Below, one piece after another: positions 20,963 through 29,199 of a DNA stretch of 64,000 nt. Under the pieces are notes generated by a model. That model made no database searches, had not been told where the DNA came from, and worked only from the letters and a program-made list of their open reading frames with translations. The stretch's first letter is position 1; each line of letters starts with the position of its first letter. The position numbers were made by a program, and so were the translations under genes. Source of the DNA: Alphaproteobacteria bacterium (GTDB lineage Bacteria > Pseudomonadota > Alphaproteobacteria > Micropepsales > Micropepsaceae); NCBI GenBank assembly GCA_025350465.1, contig JANXXU010000007.1, positions 1-64,000 on the forward strand, written 5' to 3'.

Positions 20963-21900
20963 CGGGGGCGCAGGTCGCGCGCGACAGCGGAGCGGCACGG
21001 CCGTTTGTCGGCATCGCGCTTAAGATCGCGGCGACGTTTTCCTTTAGTTTGATGGCGGCGATCGCCCGCGGACTCGGCGATGCCTATCCGCTCGGCCAGA
21101 TCGTGTTCTTTCGCGCGAGCTTCGCACTGGTGCCGATCGCCGCTCTGATGTTCTTTTCCAGAACGAGCCTTGCGGAACTCACGACAGAACGGCCGCTGGC
21201 CCATGTTCTGCGCTCGATCGCCGGCATCGGGGCCATGTTCAGCTATTTCGCGGCGCTGGCCTATCTGCCACTCGCCGACGTGACGGCCATCGGGTTTGCC
21301 TCGCCGCTCTTTGTCGTCGCGCTTGCCGCTATCGTTCTGGGCGAACATGTCCACGTTTATCGCTGGAGCGCGGTCGCGGTCGGTTTCGTCGGCGTCCTCA
21401 TCATGGTTTCGCCCCATTTGCAGCAGAGCGAAGCCGGCACGCCGATGATCGGGCTGATCTGTGCGTTTGCCGCGGCGATTTTCACAGCTTTCGCCATGGT
21501 TGCGATCAGACGTATGAGCGCGACGGAGTCGGCGATCGCCATCGCGCTCTATTTTCAGTTGACGTGCATGGCAGTCAGCCTCGCCACATTGCCCTTTGCT
21601 TGGGTCGCGCCCAACGCGCGCGACCTGACGCTGTTGGTTCTTATGGGCATCATGGGCGGATTCGGTCAGCTTTTTATGACCAACGGCTTCCGCTTTGCTC
21701 AGGCCTCGGTGCTCGCCAATTTCGACTATGCGGCCATGGTTTGGGCCATACTTTTCGGTTGGCTGTTTTTCAGCGAATTGCCGGCGCGGGCGGTCTACGT
21801 TGGCGCCGCGATCGTTATCGCGTCGGGCGTGTTCATCGCATGGCGCGAACGGCAACTTGGTATCGAACGCGCGGCCGAGCGGGTGGTGAAGCCGATTTAG
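20959..21900 (+). CDS. EamA/DMT superfamily transporter
   Basis: A 313-residue drug/metabolite transporter with ten predicted membrane segments in two EamA repeats. The repeats are visible as MAAIARGLGDAYPLGQIVFFR with ALAYLPLADVTAIGFASPLF, and in the second half TNGFRFAQASVLANFDYAAMVWAILFGW. It is an inner-membrane exporter of small metabolites or amino acids. The GTG start at 20959 overlaps the CorA stop codon. A TTG at 20953 is the alternative. Its stop overlaps by four bases the convergent stop region of the cysteine-cluster gene at 21897. Confidence 0.86.
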   Translation: MTGAQVARDSGAARPFVGIALKIAATFSFSLMAAIARGLGDAYPLGQIVFFRASFALVPIAALMFFSRTSLAELTTERPLAHVLRSIAGIGAMFSYFAALAYLPLADVTAIGFASPLFVVALAAIVLGEHVHVYRWSAVAVGFVGVLIMVSPHLQQSEAGTPMIGLICAFAAAIFTAFAMVAIRRMSATESAIAIALYFQLTCMAVSLATLPFAWVAPNARDLTLLVLMGIMGGFGQLFMTNGFRFAQASVLANFDYAAMVWAILFGWLFFSELPARAVYVGAAIVIASGVFIAWRERQLGIERAAERVVKPI

Positions 21901-22526
21901 GCCGTATTGCGATGATCGCCTTGCCGAGCTTCGATTTCATCGAGCTCGCCCACGAACGCGGGGCCGAAATAATACTCGAGCTCCGAGCGGACGCCGCGAT
22001 AGAGCGTCGGCCCCTCGCCCAGGCATACCAACGTGCGATCGTCGACCTCGTCCATCACGTGCAGGACCCCGTCATCGAAGGTCAGCGGGAACATGGTCGA
22101 GAGGACCGGCTTCAGGTCGTGGTAATCGAGACCCTTTTCGAGGGCAAAGGCATGCAGGTGACAACCGCGCCGGCGCCGATCGAGGAATACGCACTTGCCG
22201 TCGACCGTGTTCGTTCGAACGCTGGCGCCGCCGGGGTAATCGGGATGCTCCTCCCGTTCGGCCAAAAACCAATCGGCCGCGGGCACTTTGATCCGCGCCT
22301 CGAGCTCCTCCTTGTATTTCAGCACGCGCGTGACGTTCTCGACATCGATGTCGACGCCGAATGAGCAGCACCAATCGCCGCAAAATTTGCAGCTCATGCA
22401 GTGGGTGAAATAGCGCAAATTGAAGATTTCGACCGCGACCTTGGCGATCGCGGGGGCACCGTAGCGGGCGGTGTAGGCCCGGCTGAGGTCGACAATAGGC
22501 GGTTGGGCCCGCGTGACGATGTTCAT
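21897..22526 (-). CDS. Cysteine-cluster protein (YkgJ/DUF3109-like)
   Basis: A 209-residue soluble protein with a cysteine cluster near residues 43-54: HCMSCKFCGDWCCSFGVDI. Further cysteines occur in DGKCVFLD and RRGCHLH, as in the YkgJ-type putative iron- or zinc-chelating families. The segment LKPVLSTMFPLTFDDGVL matches the family tail. The cluster suggests a metal or Fe-S centre. It is the third gene of a minus-strand operon after the lysine 2,3-aminomutase and the ATP-grasp ligase, starting 7 bp after the ligase. An accessory redox or metal-supply role for those enzymes is plausible but unproven. Confidence 0.8.
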   Translation of the reverse strand: MNIVTRAQPPIVDLSRAYTARYGAPAIAKVAVEIFNLRYFTHCMSCKFCGDWCCSFGVDIDVENVTRVLKYKEELEARIKVPAADWFLAEREEHPDYPGGASVRTNTVDGKCVFLDRRRRGCHLHAFALEKGLDYHDLKPVLSTMFPLTFDDGVLHVMDEVDDRTLVCLGEGPTLYRGVRSELEYYFGPAFVGELDEIEARQGDHRNTA

Positions 22527-22533
22527 GAGCCGA

Positions 22534-23523
22534 TCAGCGTGCCTGCGCCGCGCGAAGCGCCGCCGAGGTCATGAGGTCGATCGCAGCAGGCGGGCCGATG
22601 CCGGCCTGATCGGCCGCTGCCATGAAGCCTGCGTCGAGCGAGAGGTCGGGGTTGGCGTTGATGTCGACCACGTAGGGCGCCCCATCCTTTGAAACGCGGA
22701 AATCGAGGCGCGCCCAACCGCCGAGACCAAAGCCATCCCACACTTTCAAGCTGAGATCCGACATCGCCTCGATCAAGCGGCTGTCACGGGCGGCGTGATC
22801 GTAGTGGCGGATGGTGTTGGTCGATTCGAAGCTCTGACTGTCCCACTTTGCCTTGTAGTCGACGATCTTGTGCATGCCGCTCGCATATTCGCGGAACTCG
22901 ATCTCCGCGATCGGCAGAACCTTAGGACCGCTGGGCGTTTCGATGATCGAGGAATTGAATTCGCGGCCGTCGACATAGCTTTCCATCACCCATTCGATGT
23001 CGTGCTGGCGCGTCAGTCTGTCCGCGAGATCGCAAGCCGCCGCGCTGCCGTCAACGACATTTTCCTGGGTGATGCCGAACGAGGCATGCTCGTGGCGGGC
23101 CTTGACGATCCATTGTCCGCCGGCGAGCGAAGCCCCGCGTTCGAAGAGGACCGGCGACGGTACACCCAAGATGCGCAAAATGCGCTTTGCCAGCACCTTG
23201 TCGTTGGTCATGAAGATCGCCTGCGCGTCGCAGCCGGTGTAGGGCAGGCGCAATTCCTCAAGATAGACCGGCGGCAAGTGGATCAAGCGGCTGCGGGCAT
23301 AGACCGATTCCACGAGATTGAAGACGCAGTCGGCCTTCGCCGTCTTCATCGTCGCTTGAAACGTGGCGGGGTCGAACTCGAAATGCTCGATCGCGGTCGA
23401 ATAGCCAAGTGCGGCGTAGTGCTTGGCGACCTCGTGTGCCGTCGACAGGGTGGCGAGATCGTCGTCGGCCGCCACTTCGCGCAGCTCCGGTACCAGGATG
23501 ACGATGTGGAGCTTTTGTTTCAT
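22534..23523 (-). CDS. ATP-grasp ligase, D-alanine-D-alanine ligase-like
   Basis: A 329-residue ATP-grasp enzyme. The Ddl-like parts are an N-terminal domain with CVFNLVES and LEELRLPYTGCDAQ, a middle domain with the substrate/ATP part WIVKARHEHASFGI, and a C-terminal domain with WVMESYVDGREFNSS, IVDYKAKW and the Mg-binding region RLDFRVSKDG with VVDINANPDLS. All expected ATP and Mg residues appear present. Ddl enzymes join two amino acids. In this operon a beta-amino acid such as beta-lysine is a possible substrate. It is not the cell-wall Ddl by context, since no murein genes are near. ATG 23523 is chosen over GTG 23529. Confidence 0.83.
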   Translation of the reverse strand: MKQKLHIVILVPELREVAADDDLATLSTAHEVAKHYAALGYSTAIEHFEFDPATFQATMKTAKADCVFNLVESVYARSRLIHLPPVYLEELRLPYTGCDAQAIFMTNDKVLAKRILRILGVPSPVLFERGASLAGGQWIVKARHEHASFGITQENVVDGSAAACDLADRLTRQHDIEWVMESYVDGREFNSSIIETPSGPKVLPIAEIEFREYASGMHKIVDYKAKWDSQSFESTNTIRHYDHAARDSRLIEAMSDLSLKVWDGFGLGGWARLDFRVSKDGAPYVVDINANPDLSLDAGFMAAADQAGIGPPAAIDLMTSAALRAAQAR

Positions 23524-23543
23524 GTCCACTCAACAAACGTTCA

Positions 23544-23565
23544 GGGCGGCAGTTGTCTGCCGCCC
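23544..23565. terminator. Perfect 9-bp hairpin between kamA-like and ATP-grasp genes
   Basis: GGGCGGCAG (23544-23552), loop TTGT and CTGCCGCCC (23557-23565) form a perfect stem with a tetraloop. Reading the plus strand, three T follow; reading the minus strand, where the genes lie, no T-run follows. It is therefore more likely an mRNA processing or attenuation element within the operon than a full terminator. Confidence 0.5.
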
Positions 23566-23585
23566 TTTAGCCGTCTAGCCGAAGC

Positions 23586-24971
23586 TTACTCCGCTGCCAA
23601 GCGGGGGCGCGGTCTTGGCGCACCCAGCTTGCCGCCGGGATCGGGATAGCGATGAACCTTGCCCTCGAAGTTCCGAAGCAAGAGATCGTCGCCGTCTCGA
23701 CCGACCACCGGGTCGGGTGCGAGTTGAATTTTACCGCCACCACCGGGAGCATCGATCACGAACATCGGGCAGGCATAGCCGGAGGTGTGGCCGCGCAGCG
23801 CCTTGATGATCTCGAGCCCTTTTTCGACCGGCGTGCGGAAGTGACCGGAGCCTTTGATCGGGTCGCATTGATAAAGGTAATAGGGCTTGACGCGACGGAC
23901 GAGCAGTCCGTGCATCAATTCGGTCATAACCTTTGTGTCGTCGTTGATATCCTTCAACAAAACGGTCTGGCTACCCAGGGGGATGCCGGCGTCGGCGAGG
24001 CGCGCCGTGGCTTCCGTCACTTCGGGCGTGAGCTCGGTCGGATGAGTGAAATGTAGGCTCATCCACAGCGGATGGTGCTTGCGCAGCATCTTGACGAAGT
24101 CGCGTGTGATGCGCATCGGCAACACCGCCGGGATCTTGGTCCCGATGCGCAAGAATTCGATGTGCTTGATCTTCCGCAGGCGCGTGAGCAGCCAGTCGAG
24201 CTTTTCATCGCCGATCGACAATGGATCGCCGCCTGAAAGCAGAACGTCACGAACCTCGTCATGCTCCTCCAGATAGGCGAGGGCCTTTTCCCACTGCGAC
24301 GTGGAGAAATTGTATTCGCCACCCGGATTGCCGACCATGCGCGAACGGGTGCAATAGCGACAATAGGTCGAACAAAATCCCGTCGTCAGGAACAAAACGC
24401 GATCAGGATAGCGATGAACGAGTCCCGGAACGACAGTGTCATGGTCTTCGCCGAGGGGGTCGTCTTCCTCACCCGGTAGGCGAACATATTCTTCGGGCAC
24501 CATGATGTGTGTGCGGCGCAGCGGCTCGGACGCGTCGGTCCGGCTCATCAGACTGGCATAGTAAGGAGTGATGCCGACCGGCAGCGAACCTTTGTGTTGC
24601 AAGGCCGCAGCTCGCTCGTCCTTCGACAGATCGAAGATGCGCTCAAGCTCTTCAAGCGTGCGGACACGGGTGCGTGCCTGCCAGCGCCAATCATTCCATT
24701 CGTCTGCAGAAGTGCCAGGGTAGTAGGAGCGGTAGAAGTCGCGGGCAGCGGCGCTGATCGGGAAGCGGTTGACCTTACGCTGCTGATGTCCTGGCTGGGG
24801 GGGCTTGTTCGGGAAGGCTGCTGCGGATGGGGGAAGGCGAAGGCTACGGGGTACCGGTTCGGCCGTGGACGGCGCGGCCGCGCTCCGACTTCGTTCGACC
24901 AGTTTGCGTTTGGCAGGGGATCTCAGATGGGCCGCCGTGTTGGCGCCCTTCACGAAGCTATGCACGGTCAT
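23586..24971 (-). CDS. kamA: Lysine 2,3-aminomutase family radical SAM enzyme (KamA-like)
   Basis: A 461-residue radical SAM, PLP-dependent aminomutase. The [4Fe-4S] motif CSTYCRYC is at Cys200, 204 and 207. The substrate aspartates of lysine aminomutase are conserved, Asp370 in YQCDPIKGSGHFRT and Asp407 in FVIDAPGGGGK. The PLP lysine is Lys414. It should interconvert L-alpha-lysine and L-beta-lysine, unlike EpmB, which works on the EF-P pathway. An N-terminal extension of about 60-80 residues rich in Pro, Ser and Arg precedes the core and could be a spurious early start. It leads an operon with the ATP-grasp and cysteine-cluster genes; no EF-P gene is nearby. Why lysine is rearranged here is unknown. 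Confidence 0.88.
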   Translation of the reverse strand: MTVHSFVKGANTAAHLRSPAKRKLVERSRSAAAPSTAEPVPRSLRLPPSAAAFPNKPPQPGHQQRKVNRFPISAAARDFYRSYYPGTSADEWNDWRWQARTRVRTLEELERIFDLSKDERAAALQHKGSLPVGITPYYASLMSRTDASEPLRRTHIMVPEEYVRLPGEEDDPLGEDHDTVVPGLVHRYPDRVLFLTTGFCSTYCRYCTRSRMVGNPGGEYNFSTSQWEKALAYLEEHDEVRDVLLSGGDPLSIGDEKLDWLLTRLRKIKHIEFLRIGTKIPAVLPMRITRDFVKMLRKHHPLWMSLHFTHPTELTPEVTEATARLADAGIPLGSQTVLLKDINDDTKVMTELMHGLLVRRVKPYYLYQCDPIKGSGHFRTPVEKGLEIIKALRGHTSGYACPMFVIDAPGGGGKIQLAPDPVVGRDGDDLLLRNFEGKVHRYPDPGGKLGAPRPRPRLAAE

Positions 24972-25671
24972 TATCCGTCTGGTGCCTCTTGGTTTCAGGC
25001 CAGGGTCCCCAAGGCGCGGTGCTCACGCTCTCCCCCAATTTGCGAATCATGCATGACGGATGGTTAAAGGTCAAATAAAACGCGCAATGGAATGGGAGTG
25101 AGGTCAGGTCTTCGCGAGCGATTCGAATGTATTCGATCGTGATCTCACTGAAGTAATCGCATATTGACAGGCATAATCAGAATGAAGGTGCCTAGTTTTT
25201 CTGGAACAGAGACGCGGTAATCGTTTGCTCTCTTGAAGCATCGACCCTCGCGGATATTAGCGCGGAGACTTCCGCGAATCGGAGCAACACCACGCGACTC
25301 TCGCCAGCACTTCGCGAGTACGGGAGCGAATCACTTCGACCGCGATCACGCTTGTCGCGAAGATTTCGGCGACGAAGCTGTTAGTCTGTATACGGATGAT
25401 TAGAATTTTGTGGATTGTGGAGCGCGACGACGGCTCTCGAGAGTGTATCAAGACAAAAAAACAGCATCCGCTCCGCAATCGAGTCGGGTCGAAAGAGATC
25501 GCGATCGGCTCCGCGTGCGTGAACACCTTGAGAACATCGCTCGCGTCGGCGCGTCGTCCGATGAACGAAACGCGAGAGCTTCTTCTGGATGCGATGGTCG
25601 CCCGGCGGTGGCACGTTGCGCGGTCGGGAACTCGAAATTCTTAGCGAGACCTCAACGCGAGGACGCTTCGC
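24972..25671. other. 700-bp region without a convincing gene
   Basis: Both flanking genes run on the minus strand, so the region should hold the kamA promoter and the 3' end of the glycosyltransferase transcript. Base composition is lower in GC than around it. Open frames exist on both strands (for example 25257-25526 minus, 25396-25644 plus), but they lack ribosome sites and protein-like composition. Words such as TTCGCGAG and CGCGAGCG recur. A short inverted repeat, AGCGAGACC against GGACGCTTCGCT, lies at its right end. A small RNA or decayed gene cannot be excluded. Confidence 0.4.
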
Positions 25672-27375
25672 TCATGGCCCCTTGCGTAGGCGGTAGAGCG
25701 TCAGCGTCACCTCTTTGCCCCTCGAGTAGTTCAGTCCGCTGATCGGCTGGCCCAATTGCTCGACCTGCAAGAGTTGCTGGTTCAAGCGCTGATGGAAGCT
25801 CGGCTCGTCGCCCTTCTCGATCAAGACCACGGCATTGGGCGTTGTCGCCAAGAAATCGGCGGCGTCGGCGCCGTCCTTTGCGAGTTTCATCTTGGTTCCA
25901 ACTTGAAAAACCAAGCTTGGTTCATGGAAGCCGGCTGAAGCTACCGCCTTGGGATCAGCGCCTGTGCTCGCGACAAGCTGAGCCGCTCGCTTTGACACCA
26001 TGAGGTGATCGAGCGTTGGCAAAACCCCGGCAAGGGCGATGACGGCGAGAAGACCGCCCGCGGCGATCGCCGCGGCGGCGGCCTTCTCGCCTTCAAGCCT
26101 CACCAAAAAAACGAGAGCGAAGCCCGCCGCGATCACAACCGGAACCGCGAGGATCCAGAGCAAGGGCGACGCTCCGGAGCCATAAGTGCCCGGCACATAG
26201 ACCATAAGGGCGCCGAGGAGGGCGAACGTCATCAGCAGCCATAACGCGGCGCCCAATTTGACCGACATCGAATCCAAGAAATTCCTAGACTCGCGTGTCG
26301 CCGCCATGATCGCCGCGGCGCAGAGCAAAGCGATCGCCGGATAAAGGGGCAGCGGATAGTGCGGTAGTTTGGTCGGTGCGAACTCGATCAAGATCCATGC
26401 CGGCACCAACCAAGAAACCAAGAACCGGACGGCGCCTTCATGTCGACGCGACCAGGCATAAAGACCGGCCGGGACGAGGAACAGCCAACCGGGCCAAAAG
26501 CCGACGAGCAGGGACACGAGATAATACCCCGGCGGCCCCCAATGACTTTCCTCGGCACCCACGAGCTTGCCAACGAAATCCTGGCCAAATGCGTCGGCCA
26601 TGAAATGGCCGTTGGTTATGAGCATGATCGCCACGAGCCACGGCACGTTCATCAAGATCACGACGTAGAAGGCGAGGATCGGGCGCATGCTCCAGAACCA
26701 GCCCCAGCGAGCTTCCCAAAGCGACACGCCAATGATCGTCAGTCCACATACGAGGGGACCGATCGGGCCTTTGACCAGAATCGACAACCCGAGAGCGATG
26801 CCCAGCAGGATCGAATAACGAAGCGCCGGGCGGGGCGCGCCTTGTCGCGCGGCAACGAAAAAATGGGCAATCATCAACTGCGCGGCCGTGGTGCAGGCGA
26901 CGAGCACGGCGTCAGTCTTGGCAATATGGGCCTCGCCTATCAACAGGAGGGATGACGCCATCAGGCCGCCCGCCACCAAGCCCGTCTCCTTGTCGTAGAG
27001 TTTGGCGCCGAGGCCGTAGACAAAGAGCACGGCGAAGAGCGCGCCGAGAACCGAAGGGATGCGATAGGCCCAGACGGTGTTGTACGGCGGAGAGGAAAAA
27101 ACCTCAGCCGTGATCGCCTGCATCCAATAGATGCCGATGGGCTTCTTGTTGCGTGCCTCATCCTGCAGGCGCGGCTGAACGAAGTCGCCCGTTTCGATCA
27201 TTTGCTTGGTCGATTGCGTAAAGCGCGATTCGTCGCGATCGAGCGGCGGCAATGCGCCGAGACCCGGCAAATAAAGCAGGAGGCAAAGGATCGAAAGCAC
27301 GATTCGCGGATGGGCGAGCGCGAGCGACCAGGGGTTCGACAAATCGAAAGACAGAGCGGATGAGCGAGAAGCCAT
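25672..27375 (-). CDS. GT39/ArnT-like glycosyltransferase (PMT family membrane protein)
   Basis: A 567-residue integral membrane glycosyltransferase of the GT-C (PMT/ArnT) class. After an N-terminal helix (IVLSILCLLLYLPGL) comes DRDESRF, the catalytic acidic loop found in ArnT-like enzymes. About ten further membrane segments and a C-terminal periplasmic domain follow. These enzymes move a sugar from undecaprenyl phosphate to lipid A or to a protein in the periplasm. It is transcribed divergently from the GT2 gene at 27602. With the LAB_N protein at 28337, it forms the three parts of an ArnC/ArnT-like pathway. Confidence 0.87.
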   Translation of the reverse strand: MASRSSALSFDLSNPWSLALAHPRIVLSILCLLLYLPGLGALPPLDRDESRFTQSTKQMIETGDFVQPRLQDEARNKKPIGIYWMQAITAEVFSSPPYNTVWAYRIPSVLGALFAVLFVYGLGAKLYDKETGLVAGGLMASSLLLIGEAHIAKTDAVLVACTTAAQLMIAHFFVAARQGAPRPALRYSILLGIALGLSILVKGPIGPLVCGLTIIGVSLWEARWGWFWSMRPILAFYVVILMNVPWLVAIMLITNGHFMADAFGQDFVGKLVGAEESHWGPPGYYLVSLLVGFWPGWLFLVPAGLYAWSRRHEGAVRFLVSWLVPAWILIEFAPTKLPHYPLPLYPAIALLCAAAIMAATRESRNFLDSMSVKLGAALWLLMTFALLGALMVYVPGTYGSGASPLLWILAVPVVIAAGFALVFLVRLEGEKAAAAAIAAGGLLAVIALAGVLPTLDHLMVSKRAAQLVASTGADPKAVASAGFHEPSLVFQVGTKMKLAKDGADAADFLATTPNAVVLIEKGDEPSFHQRLNQQLLQVEQLGQPISGLNYSRGKEVTLTLYRLRKGP

Positions 27376-27601
27376 GGGAATCAGTTAACCACGCGCTGGG
27401 TGTCGTCGTCAGCTGCCTCAAGCAAGACGCTTGTGCGGGGCTAGGCGCGACCGGGTTTGCGCCTGTATAAAGCGCGCGGCCTCTTTCGTGGAGTCCTTGA
27501 CCTTTGGCCCGGCTTCTGGCTGGCCCGACGCCGTGACGGTTCGCCGACCCTTGTGGCGATCGGGTATCAGGCGCCCTTCAATCCGGAGCATCTAGCCAAC
27601 T

Positions 27602-28333
27602 GTGCCGCCAGATCTTTCCGTCGTGGTTCCCGTCAAAGACGAAGCCGAGAACGCGGTGCCGCTGCTCGAAGAGATTGCGGCCGCGTTGCGCGGGCGCGTC
27701 GCCTTCGAGGTGATTTTCATCGATGACGGGTCAAAGGACGGCACTGCGGAGCGGCTGCTCGCGGCGCGAGCACAGAATCCGGAACTGCGCGTTCTGCGGC
27801 ACCTCGCGAATTCAGGGCAAAGCCGCGGCGTTCGCAGCGGCGTCCTTGCCGCGCGCGCAGCGCTCGTTGCGACGCTCGATGGCGATGGGCAGAACGATCC
27901 GGCCGACATTCCCAATCTTCTCGCCGAGTGGCGCCGCCAAGAAGGGTCCACGCCACCATTGGGCCTGATAGCGGGTCAGCGGCGCAAACGAGAAGACAGT
28001 GCCGTCAAGCGCATGTCGTCGCGTGTCGGAAACGGTGTTCGACAATGGCTGCTGAACGACGGCACGCGCGACACCGGTTGCGGCCTCAAGCTCTTTTCGC
28101 GGGAGGCGTTCTTAGCGTTGCCTTATTTCGATCACATTCACCGCTTCTTGCCTGCGCTGATGCTGCGCGAAGGCTTTCGCATCGGCCATGTCGACGTGAA
28201 TCACCGCCCGCGCACGCGCGGGGTTTCGAAATACGGCGTGTTCGATCGGCTTTTGGTGTCGCTCTTGGACCTTTATGGCGTGCTGTGGCTCAAACACCGC
28301 GCGCGTAACCCTCAACGTGTGGACGAGCTCTAG
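27602..28333 (+). CDS. Family 2 glycosyltransferase, dolichyl/undecaprenyl-phosphate sugar synthase-like
   Basis: A 243-residue GT2 enzyme. It opens PPDLSVVVPVKDEAENAVPLLEEI. The nucleotide-sugar and metal region follows with FIDDGSKDGT, VATLDGDGQNDPADI and GDGTRDTGCG-like sequence NDGTRDTGCGLK. It lacks membrane helices, so it is the DPM1-short or ArnC-like catalytic domain that loads a sugar on a polyprenyl phosphate at the inner membrane. GTG 27602 is used as start, with GGAG about 14 nt before. It is followed 3 bp later by the LAB_N gene, forming an operon. Confidence 0.85.
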   Translation: MPPDLSVVVPVKDEAENAVPLLEEIAAALRGRVAFEVIFIDDGSKDGTAERLLAARAQNPELRVLRHLANSGQSRGVRSGVLAARAALVATLDGDGQNDPADIPNLLAEWRRQEGSTPPLGLIAGQRRKREDSAVKRMSSRVGNGVRQWLLNDGTRDTGCGLKLFSREAFLALPYFDHIHRFLPALMLREGFRIGHVDVNHRPRTRGVSKYGVFDRLLVSLLDLYGVLWLKHRARNPQRVDEL

Positions 28334-28336
28334 ACC

Positions 28337-28663
28337 ATGCAAGCGATCGTCAATTGGATAACGGTGGAGCACGTGTGGCTCACCATCGGATTGTTGGGGC
28401 AAGGGCTCTTCGCGTCGCGCTTCCTGGTGCAATGGTGGGCGAGCGAGCGGGCGCGCCGCAGCGTCGTCCCGGTGATGTTTTGGTATTTTTCCCTCGGCGG
28501 CGGGGTCATTCTGCTCGCCTATTCCATCTACAAGATGGATCCGGTCTTCATACTCGGGCAGGGCCTGGGCTTGGTCGTCTACCTCCGCAACCTCTATTTG
28601 ATCTTCGTCGAGCATTCGGCGGCGGGTGAGGAAAACCCCGCTCAGCCGAAGGGGGGATCGTAG
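28337..28663 (+). CDS. Lipid A biosynthesis N-terminal domain (LAB_N) membrane protein
   Basis: A 108-residue three- to four-helix membrane protein of the LAB_N type. It has VWLTIGLLGQGLFASRFLVQWWASERARRSVVP, then FWYFSLGGGVILLAYSIYKMDPVFILGQGLGLVVYLRNLYLI. The phrases FxxRFLVQWxxSE and FWxxSxxGxxxLxxYxxxxxDPVxxxGQ are the family pattern. Comparable proteins sit near GT2/GT39 enzymes and may act like a small flippase for the lipid-linked sugar. It begins 3 bp after the GT2 gene. With the divergent ArnT-like gene it makes a complete sugar-transfer set. Confidence 0.86.
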   Translation: MQAIVNWITVEHVWLTIGLLGQGLFASRFLVQWWASERARRSVVPVMFWYFSLGGGVILLAYSIYKMDPVFILGQGLGLVVYLRNLYLIFVEHSAAGEENPAQPKGGS

Positions 28664-28743
28664 CGACTCCAAGCCAACTTGGCTGGGGCGCCGTCCCCTG
28701 GTATCCTTAAACTTGGTGGTTTTTTGGGGGCTTGGAGGATTTT

Positions 28744-29199
28744 ATGAGGGGTTCTGGTTTTACCGCGTTGATTGTGTTGCCGTTGTTGATGTTTTCGCTG
28801 ATCGTCTACAATTTGGTTGCGATCATCGGCTTCAGCGGCTCGCCGGATACGATCGACGCCTGGATGACGTCGCCGATCTTCACGATCAGCATGTTTTCAG
28901 GCGATAAATGGGACGTGTCGTTCTCCGACGTGTTCCTTGGGCTCAGCCTGATGTTGCTCTTCGTCGAAATGACGAAGGCGACGCGCACGGACTCGCTCGC
29001 CATCATCAATCACGGACTGTCGATGTTGGTGGCAGTGATCTGCATCGTCGAGTTCGTCGCCGTTCGCGGCTTTTCGAATTCGACCTTCTTCATGCTGTTG
29101 TTGATGACAATCTTCGATGTCATCGCCGGGTTCACGATCACGATCGTGGCGGCGAAGCGCGACTTCGGCTCTTCAACCGGCATCGTCGGTACGAACTAA
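28744..29199 (+). CDS. Four-helix membrane protein, unknown function
   Basis: A 151-residue inner-membrane protein with four hydrophobic segments, near residues 7-27, 52-75, 82-104 and 113-137. It has a conserved-looking loop GDKWDVSFSDVFLGLSLMLLFVE and the tail KRDFGSSTGIVGTN. The ATG at 28744 follows GGAGG by about 6 nt. A strong rho-independent terminator follows at 29219. Similar small four-helix proteins are common in alphaproteobacteria, but I cannot name the family. It may be transcribed separately from the upstream LAB_N gene, given the 80-bp gap. Confidence 0.8.
   Translation: MRGSGFTALIVLPLLMFSLIVYNLVAIIGFSGSPDTIDAWMTSPIFTISMFSGDKWDVSFSDVFLGLSLMLLFVEMTKATRTDSLAIINHGLSMLVAVICIVEFVAVRGFSNSTFFMLLLMTIFDVIAGFTITIVAAKRDFGSSTGIVGTN

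Follow-up and report, generated by a model that had tools for sequence, protein, structure and literature searches.

Which product requires a lysine 2,3-aminomutase, an ATP-grasp ligase and a cysteine-rich protein encoded side by side? This is the question raised by a locus in the window (the whole stretch of 64,000 nucleotides analysed here), where the original prediction had claimed an operon of three genes. All three open reading frames are present on the minus strand: a KamA-type lysine 2,3-aminomutase of the radical SAM/PLP kind (23586..24971, 461 aa); ATPA, an ATP-grasp ligase with the D-Ala-D-Ala ligase (Ddl) fold (22534..23529, 331 aa from a GTG start or 329 aa from the ATG at 23523); and a Cys-cluster protein (21897..22526, 209 aa). 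The intergenic gaps are 62 nt (KamA/ATPA) and 7 nt (ATPA/Cys protein), and promoter and terminator scans gave nothing better than shuffled sequences. An EamA-family transporter gene adjoins the cluster on the opposite strand. On balance, the trio is best regarded as the local form, altered by rearrangement, of a conserved biosynthetic set composed of KamA, a second Ddl-like ligase (ATPB), ATPA and a small GNAT acetyltransferase.

A Four-Gene Set Conserved in Several Phyla

The neighborhood was scanned with ATPA alone, taking the best 80 of at least 569 relatives, and its ratios describe the nearest relatives of ATPA. Loci were eligible when they held at least 2.6 kb upstream (KamA and ATPB, n = 61, with 19 loci of shorter flank excluded) or at least 2.6 kb downstream (GNAT and deacetylase, n = 63, with 17 excluded); gene calls were made by a simple script, and the key ratios come from tblastn. 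Within these best 80 of at least 569 relatives, KamA lies no more than 5 kb from ATPA in 58 of 61 eligible loci, ATPB stands beside ATPA in 56 of 61 and the GNAT in 62 of 63, while a deacetylase fusion protein accompanies 17 of 63. Three of the 80 loci (L037, L038 and L039) belong to the window's own genus; without them, the same sample of the best 80 of at least 569 gives 56/59 for KamA, 56/59 for ATPB and 59/60 for the GNAT, with all four genes inside the fetched stretch in 57 of the 77 remaining loci. The linkage between KamA and the ligase is kept across several phylum labels among the scan loci.

A second sample, an even draw of 289 genomes of the class, contained 15 loci scoring above 240 bits outside the window's family, with KamA adjacent in 14, ATPB in 15 and the GNAT in 14. 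Class hits of 200 bits or less (5 of 15 inspected) showed no KamA or GNAT in the stretch fetched, and one of them held an ATPB-like match only. The synteny search suggested with the original prediction is thus strongly positive for KamA and the ligase, and the gene set stays linked across several bacterial phyla. Chance adjacency of KamA and ATPA, considered as a separate explanation, is ruled out by the synteny of the scan together with the even class draw.

The pairwise distances of the four proteins in 35 sets are also correlated, with rho values of 0.55–0.83 against permutation maxima of 0.30–0.39 (500 permutations per pair). Correlations involving KamA (0.55–0.62) fall short of those that link the remaining three proteins (0.79–0.83), suggesting that KamA may be swapped more freely. 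ATPA occurs without KamA in L155 of the class draw, and in L060, L101 and L112 among the 61 scan loci; the L060 contig starts about 3.1 kb upstream of ATPA. Conversely, genome G060 holds a cluster-like KamA and no ATPA match.

The window's genome encodes all four members of the set. KamA and ATPA lie in the window, ATPB on contig C1 (64568-65539; 54% to a deltaproteobacterial ATPB) and the GNAT on contig C11 (61.5% to a cluster GNAT). The suggestion that partners are missing is thus not supported: the usual ones are the second ligase and the GNAT, which adjoin KamA in relatives and are found on other contigs here. No GNAT remnant was detected in the window by tblastn; the top GNAT-like match was an ORF near 63.3 kb, which its position and appearance suggest to be RimI.

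The Aminomutase

The window KamA matches the solved lysine 2,3-aminomutase (LAM) 2a5h with an E-value of 1.6e-122 and 50.3% identity over 358 residues, retaining the cluster cysteines, the PLP lysine and both substrate aspartates, as had been claimed. C200, C204 and C207 are the cluster ligands, and R209, D370, D407 and K414 align with LAM R134, D293, D330 and K337. The positions aligned to these residues of LAM, including C125, C129 and C132, are kept in 66 of 66 cluster KamAs (64 distinct sequences, window included). These positions comprise the CxxxCxxC motif, the PLP lysine and the equivalents of Arg134, Asp293 and Asp330. Conservation of the lysine-binding residues in all 66 proteins backs the earlier suggestion of lysine as the likely substrate, and KamA probably converts lysine to beta-lysine.

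Despite these similarities, the cluster KamAs differ from LAM and AblA. The best NCBIfam equivalog of the window protein is AblA, with a score below the cut-off (455.6 versus 525.4 bits), and LAM L294 is replaced by proline in 66 of 66 and T338 by isoleucine in 65 of 66 cluster KamAs. The window protein also holds an N-terminal extension of 85 aa.

The Two Ligases

The assignment of ATPA to the Ddl type of ATP-grasp enzymes is borne out by both domain and fold. It matches Pfam Dala_Dala_lig_C with 58.2 bits (cut-off 24), and its closest solved folds are the Ddl structures 8evv (Z 33.2 over 297 residues, rmsd 2.3) and 8evy (Z 31.7). However, it matches 23 NCBIfam Ddl/Van models and reaches the cut-off of none, TIGR01205 being one example (67.5 versus 245.65). 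In the numbering of E. coli DdlB, the window enzyme keeps the ATP/Mg residues, with E270 changed to D, and replaces S150 by A, Y216 by W, S281 by A and L282 by G.

Both families resemble DdlB in their ATP/Mg site, where K97, K144, E180, K215, R255, D257 and N272 are invariant in 84 of 84 ATPA (81 distinct sequences) and 70 of 70 ATPB proteins; at position 270, 62 of the 84 ATPA have E and 22 have D. By contrast, at S150/Y216/L282 each family presents its own signature, namely A or G/W/G in ATPA, and T or S/mostly E/D in ATPB. Accordingly, none of these three D-Ala residues is found in any of the 84 ATPA. E15 occurs in four, in a stretch that aligns poorly. S281 is retained in 15 of the 84 ATPA and in all 70 ATPB, so the residues of the D-Ala site are not all lost. 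This sequence signature argues against D-Ala specificity in the two ligases, in line with the original prediction for ATPA. We infer that the ligases may join beta-lysine to another amino acid.

The Acetyltransferase and the Deacetylase

The cluster GNAT sequences amount to 70 (67 distinct). The only solved match of the own-genome GNAT at an E-value of 0.001 or better is 2r7h (2.5e-29), to which its depositors gave the name "putative D-alanine N-acetyltransferase". The GNAT is fused to ATPA in 9 of 92 loci; one such fusion, L085, was compared with NCBIfam, and its 24 matches at 1e-3 included no model named for the N-acetylglutaminylglutamine amide pathway, with its Ngg-type GNAT/ATP-grasp and amidotransferase, or for an N-acetyl-beta-lysine route.

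In some lineages, a deacetylase-like protein is also present. Its nearest solved relatives are the acetylpolyamine amidohydrolases 9gkz and 6phr, which the histone-deacetylase domain of L083 matches with 256 and 251.5 bits, respectively. Unlike those enzymes, proteins of the L083 type hold an N-terminal GNAT-like domain, with fusion to the cluster GNAT in 6 of 92 loci.

The Cys-Cluster Protein

The label "YkgJ/DUF3109-like" originally given to this protein captures a fair resemblance, but one that remains below threshold, with 20.3 bits against Pfam CxxCxxCC (cut-off 23) and, for its relative in L034, 28.2 bits against DUF3109 (cut-off 33.5). Eight cysteines (C43, C46, C49, C53, C54, C112, C122 and C168) are invariant in seven aligned sequences, from the eight members at hand once L035, called short, was left out. 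A single-sequence structure prediction was useless (pLDDT 35), and a sequence search for solved relatives yielded none (best E-value 0.51).

Synteny is negative for this protein as a conserved member of the trio, as it was found in none of the 63 loci eligible in the scan (best 80 of at least 569 relatives) and is carried by 4 of the 289 class genomes. The Cys protein is a lineage-specific accessory outside the general system. Overall, the original reading of the trio stands for lysine as the likely substrate, a ligase that seems not to be specific for D-Ala and the linkage of both genes; it is not supported for the missing partners or for the Cys protein as a general member.

Alternative Explanations

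The cluster could instead make a secreted peptide natural product of the beta-lysine antibiotic or metallophore type, with the Cys protein of the alphaproteobacterial lineage handling its metal. Beta-lysine side chains do occur in antibiotics, the cluster is compact, and the adjoining EamA-family gene encodes a transporter. However, that gene lies on the opposite strand and was tagged in 4 of 80 scan loci (best 80 of at least 569 relatives), three of them from the window's genus. Moreover, no NRPS, PKS or resistance gene was recognized among the neighbor groups common to at least 3 of the 92 loci, as assessed visually from their lengths and opening residues, and the presence of both KamA and ATPA in 33 of 37 genomes of the family is more like core metabolism. 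This explanation is considered unlikely.

A quite unlikely alternative is the AblA/AblB route, in which KamA would feed the osmolyte N-epsilon-acetyl-beta-lysine, the GNAT would replace AblB and the ligases would serve something else. AblA being the best equivalog of KamA, and the acetyltransferase that accompanies KamA in relatives, would fit this route; the score of KamA under the AblA cut-off does not. A search for AblB (TIGR03827) was negative both in the own genome, which is 98.3% complete (E-value limit 0.001), and in a sample of 299 genomes from the phylum (limit 1e-30); the same model matched 5 of 14 control genomes, 3 above cut-off. Furthermore, the fusions of GNAT to ATPA indicate that the ligase is no bystander.

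It is very improbable that ATPA is the peptidoglycan D-Ala-D-Ala ligase in an incidental neighborhood, a proposal that its Ddl-like fold would favor and that its sequence already contradicts. A true Ddl (267.9 versus the cut-off of 245.65 that the window enzyme misses) is encoded on contig C29, in a cluster of what we take from sequence to be cell-division/peptidoglycan genes; the window enzyme and its relatives lack S150, Y216 and L282, and the KamA linkage is kept across phylum labels. The supply of beta-lysine to EF-P, as performed by KamA-family enzymes in other bacteria, has a negligible probability here and is already contradicted, with the window KamA below the cut-offs of EpmB (246.8 versus 369.3) and AblA_like_2 (302.5 versus 396.25) and a separate kit on contig C6, where an AblA_like_2 (523 bits, cut-off 396.25) is encoded beside EpmA (374.2, cut-off 286.9) and EF-P. 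Thus, with a separate EF-P kit, a true Ddl of its own and no detectable AblB, none of the last three explanations accounts for the trio.

Proposed Pathway and Its Implications

The favored explanation, although by no great measure, is that the conserved set makes an N-acetylated beta-lysyl peptide. KamA, with its conserved substrate residues, would isomerize L-lysine to beta-lysine, and ATPA and ATPB would spend ATP on linking beta-lysine to other amino acids through one or two amide bonds. This ligation is expected to proceed via acyl-phosphates as in Ddl, given the fold of ATPA and the ATP/Mg site of both enzymes. The GNAT, in keeping with its fusions to ATPA, would then acetylate a free amine of the peptide, giving an N-acetylated beta-lysyl di- or tripeptide as the end product. 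In some lineages, the acetylpolyamine-amidohydrolase-like protein fused to the GNAT may strip the acetyl group or degrade the product. The organism of the window encodes ATPB and the GNAT on contigs apart from KamA and ATPA, and these two have been joined by a Cys-rich protein of metal-binding type.

N-acetyl-beta-lysine and N-acetylglutaminylglutamine amide are compatible solutes, and by analogy the peptide is perhaps, and most simply, one as well. The former is made by an aminomutase and an acetyltransferase, and the latter by an acetyltransferase and an ATP-grasp ligase, each route leading to an acetylated small solute. Unlike either of them, the present set combines all of these enzyme types, with two Ddl-like ligases and no AblB found in the window's genome.

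A beta-lysine peptide route appears to be undescribed, as had been suspected. No description turned up in searches of PMC papers, subscription papers and preprints lying outside this scope, and neither of the two papers there that contain both "aminomutase" and "ATP-grasp" concerns such a cluster by its title or abstract opening. Neighborhoods of ATP-grasp and GNAT genes have been treated by comparative genomics (PMC4431377, PMC2922099), where a word search found no occurrence of "aminomutase". The usual annotations would be "lysine 2,3-aminomutase", "D-alanine-D-alanine ligase" and "GNAT acetyltransferase", generic names under which the whole pathway would stay hidden.

More broadly, the locus may point to a new class of small molecules, N-acetylated beta-lysyl peptides, whose synthesis by four conserved enzymes would extend over many bacterial phyla and, in part of these bacteria, be controlled by reversible acetylation through a GNAT/acetylpolyamine-deacetylase pair; to this set the window's family would have added a Cys-rich metal protein that serves KamA or modifies the product. 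This wider proposal is tentative and given somewhat less than even confidence. It predicts that kamA or ligase mutants would be devoid of a lysine-derived acetylated peptide. If true, beta-amino-acid metabolism would reach past the osmolytes of methanogens, antibiotics and EF-P.

Gene content of the cluster in the window

The window holds three neighbouring ORFs on the minus strand, arranged as the original prediction had placed them and separated by gaps of 62 and 7 nt: a lysine 2,3-aminomutase (KamA, 23586–24971), a ligase of the Ddl-fold ATP-grasp type (ATPA, 22534–23529), and a cysteine-rich protein (21897–22526). KamA matches the solved lysine 2,3-aminomutase 2a5h (E 1.6e-122), and ATPA belongs to the Ddl family (Pfam, 58.2 bits). 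The third protein has 209 residues, with eight cysteines invariant across seven aligned sequences; its earlier YkgJ/DUF3109-like label is reasonable, although the CxxCxxCC score lies just below the Pfam threshold and a relative scores below that for DUF3109.

Upstream of kamA, most of a lipid- or sugar-glycosylation-like module is retained at 25672–29199. Relatives carry the same module adjoining the KamA cluster, comprising two PMT/ArnT-type proteins, a DPM1-like glycosyltransferase, and a small LAB_N-like protein (apart from the PMT Pfam match, these names are our assumption). A short match at 25500–25595 to the second PMT-type protein of the relative G001 (53% over 32 residues, E 2.7e-4) suggests that a decayed copy of this gene lies in the gap of 700 bases preceding kamA.

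Conservation within the family and beyond

Among 20 neighbourhoods sampled from genomes of the Micropepsaceae, KamA adjoins the ligase in 19; the remaining locus (L036) lies near a contig end, and KamA and the other ligase are found on another contig (L134). A second Ddl-like ligase (ATPB) sits between KamA and ATPA in 10/11 loci from other genera and in 0/9 from the genus of the window, while a small GNAT acetyltransferase is present in 15/20 neighbourhoods and the cysteine protein in 7/20. Of 37 family genomes, that of the window among them, 34 encode ATPA (E 2.4e-40 or better); all but one of these, G024 (74% complete), also have cluster-type KamA (33/34). Neither protein was found in G016 and G028, and G003 (64% complete) holds only a KamA fragment.

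A further scan, of GTDB species genomes, used only the ATPA alignment as query. It yielded at least 569 relatives, of which the 80 best were retained; ratios refer to loci with enough flank. Among these best 80, KamA lies within 5 kb of ATPA in 58/61 loci, with ATPB nearby in 56/61, GNAT in 62/63, and a GNAT/histone-deacetylase-domain fusion protein in 17/63; leaving out three loci of the window genus, the values are 56/59, 56/59, 59/60, and 17/60, respectively. KamA, ATPB, ATPA, and GNAT occur together in 57 of the 77 loci from other genera, among them loci labelled as Alpha-, Gamma-, and Deltaproteobacteria, Bacteroidetes, Planctomycetes groups, Acidobacteria, Aminicenantes, Fibrobacter, and UBP1, labels that may err because most records are MAGs. 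Betaproteobacteria, Kiritimatiellae, and Sumerlaeota are also represented among the best 80, with fewer than four of the genes in the stretch. An even draw of 289 alphaproteobacterial genomes gives the same picture: in the 15 loci outside the family scoring above 240 bits, KamA adjoins in 14, ATPB in 15, GNAT in 14, and the deacetylase protein in 3. The association of aminomutase and ligase is thus conserved, as anticipated.

A 635-residue ORF of the class genome G194 (L161, 6113–8020) shows a distant ATPA-like match, and eight other low-scoring matches lie in open frames of 646–707 residues, possibly representing a different ATP-grasp family; no KamA was seen in the single locus inspected. 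A cluster-like KamA (65% identity; L135, 4589–5770) occurs in the class genome G060 (86% complete), where no ATPA match was found.

The cysteine protein, grouped with KamA and ATPA in the original prediction, is not a general member of the cluster. It is absent from all 63 loci with enough flank in the ATPA scan (80 best out of at least 569 relatives), and at E 1e-8 it appears in 4/289 class genomes, all from the family and all with the gene beside ATPA, making it an addition specific to the family. As a guess, it may provide KamA with a metal or Fe-S cluster, or may modify the product; single-sequence structure prediction gave no usable fold for it.

Fusions, co-inheritance, and additional neighbours

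Across 92 loci, ATPA and GNAT form a single protein in nine, and the deacetylase protein and GNAT in six. Pairwise distances of KamA, ATPB, ATPA, and GNAT correlate (rho 0.55–0.83, 35 sets; maxima of 500 permutations, 0.30–0.39), the weakest correlations being those of KamA.

Deacetylase proteins of ~580–640 residues adjoin KamA/ligase genes in L056, L063, L074, L083, L086, L103, and L109. The members scanned (L083 and L103) combine a GNAT-like N-terminus with a histone-deacetylase domain, and the L083 protein has no NCBIfam match.

A decarboxylase-type gene follows the cluster in nine loci labelled Syntrophaceae, Smithella, Smithellaceae, or Deltaproteobacteria; the one tested, from L048, reaches 284 bits, short of the 297.9 required for the diaminopimelate decarboxylase LysA. 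Such a gene would provide lysine, although it may belong to a separate operon. In the Syntrophaceae-type loci L040, L043, L048, L059, L075, and L081, the cluster is followed by genes that we take to encode a PhoU-like protein and a PiT-type phosphate transporter, and by a LysA-type gene.

Residue patterns of the aminomutase and the ligases

The substrate residues of lysine 2,3-aminomutase are all kept in the 66 cluster KamAs (66/66), consistent with the lysine specificity originally predicted. For the ATPA model (pLDDT 92.5), the best structural matches are DdlA 8evv (Z 33.2, 297 residues, rmsd 2.3) and DdlB 8evy (Z 31.7). In E. coli DdlB numbering, K97, K144, E180, K215, R255, D257, and N272 are invariant in 84 ATPA and 70 ATPB rows, and E270 is replaced by Asp in 22/84 ATPA, including that of the window. 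Thus, ATPA keeps the fold and the presumed ATP/Mg residues of DdlB, whereas positions presumably involved in D-Ala recognition are replaced: S150 by Ala or Gly and Y216 by Trp (84/84), and L282 by Gly (84/84), with S281 retained in 15/84. ATPB, on the other hand, keeps S281 (70/70) but carries Asp in place of L282 (70/70). The true Ddl of the window's genome retains E15, S150, Y216, S281, and L282 in this alignment, nothing being drawn from the E15-equivalent position because the N-terminal stretch aligns poorly.

The complete set in the genome of the window

The original prediction saw no partners in the window for the known uses of beta-lysine. The usual partners of KamA and ATPA are encoded elsewhere in the same genome: ATPB on contig C1 (64568–65539; 54% identity to ATPB of a deltaproteobacterial record) and GNAT on contig C11 (61.5% identity to its counterpart in the G011 cluster). 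Therefore, the genome holds the complete four-enzyme set, half of it in the window. The same separation of ATPB and KamA onto different contigs was seen in all five further members of the genus in which the surroundings of ATPB were inspected.

The genome also encodes a true Ddl (267.9 bits; cut-off 245.65), located among cell-division/peptidoglycan genes, and a separate EF-P kit: AblA_like_2 (523 bits), EpmA (374.2 bits), and EF-P are together on contig C6 (L127, 5617–9205), with what looks like a short-chain-dehydrogenase gene between the first two. No AblB match was found in this genome.

Proposed pathway

The genes of the set, their linkage and fusions, and the residue patterns are observed, whereas the individual reactions, the amino acid partner, the end product, and its physiological role are inferred. 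KamA would convert lysine into beta-lysine, ATPA and ATPB would form one or two ATP-driven amide bonds, and GNAT would N-acetylate the ligase product; where present, the deacetylase protein would remove the acetyl group or degrade the product. The enzyme families are all known, but their combination appears undescribed, in agreement with the original suggestion: titles and abstract openings of the open-access (PMC) literature searched did not describe a cluster of this kind. The main rival reading of the product is a secreted peptide. N-acetyl-beta-lysine and N-acetylglutaminylglutamine amide are compatible solutes, and by analogy with them our first guess is that the acetylated product may serve these bacteria as a compatible solute.
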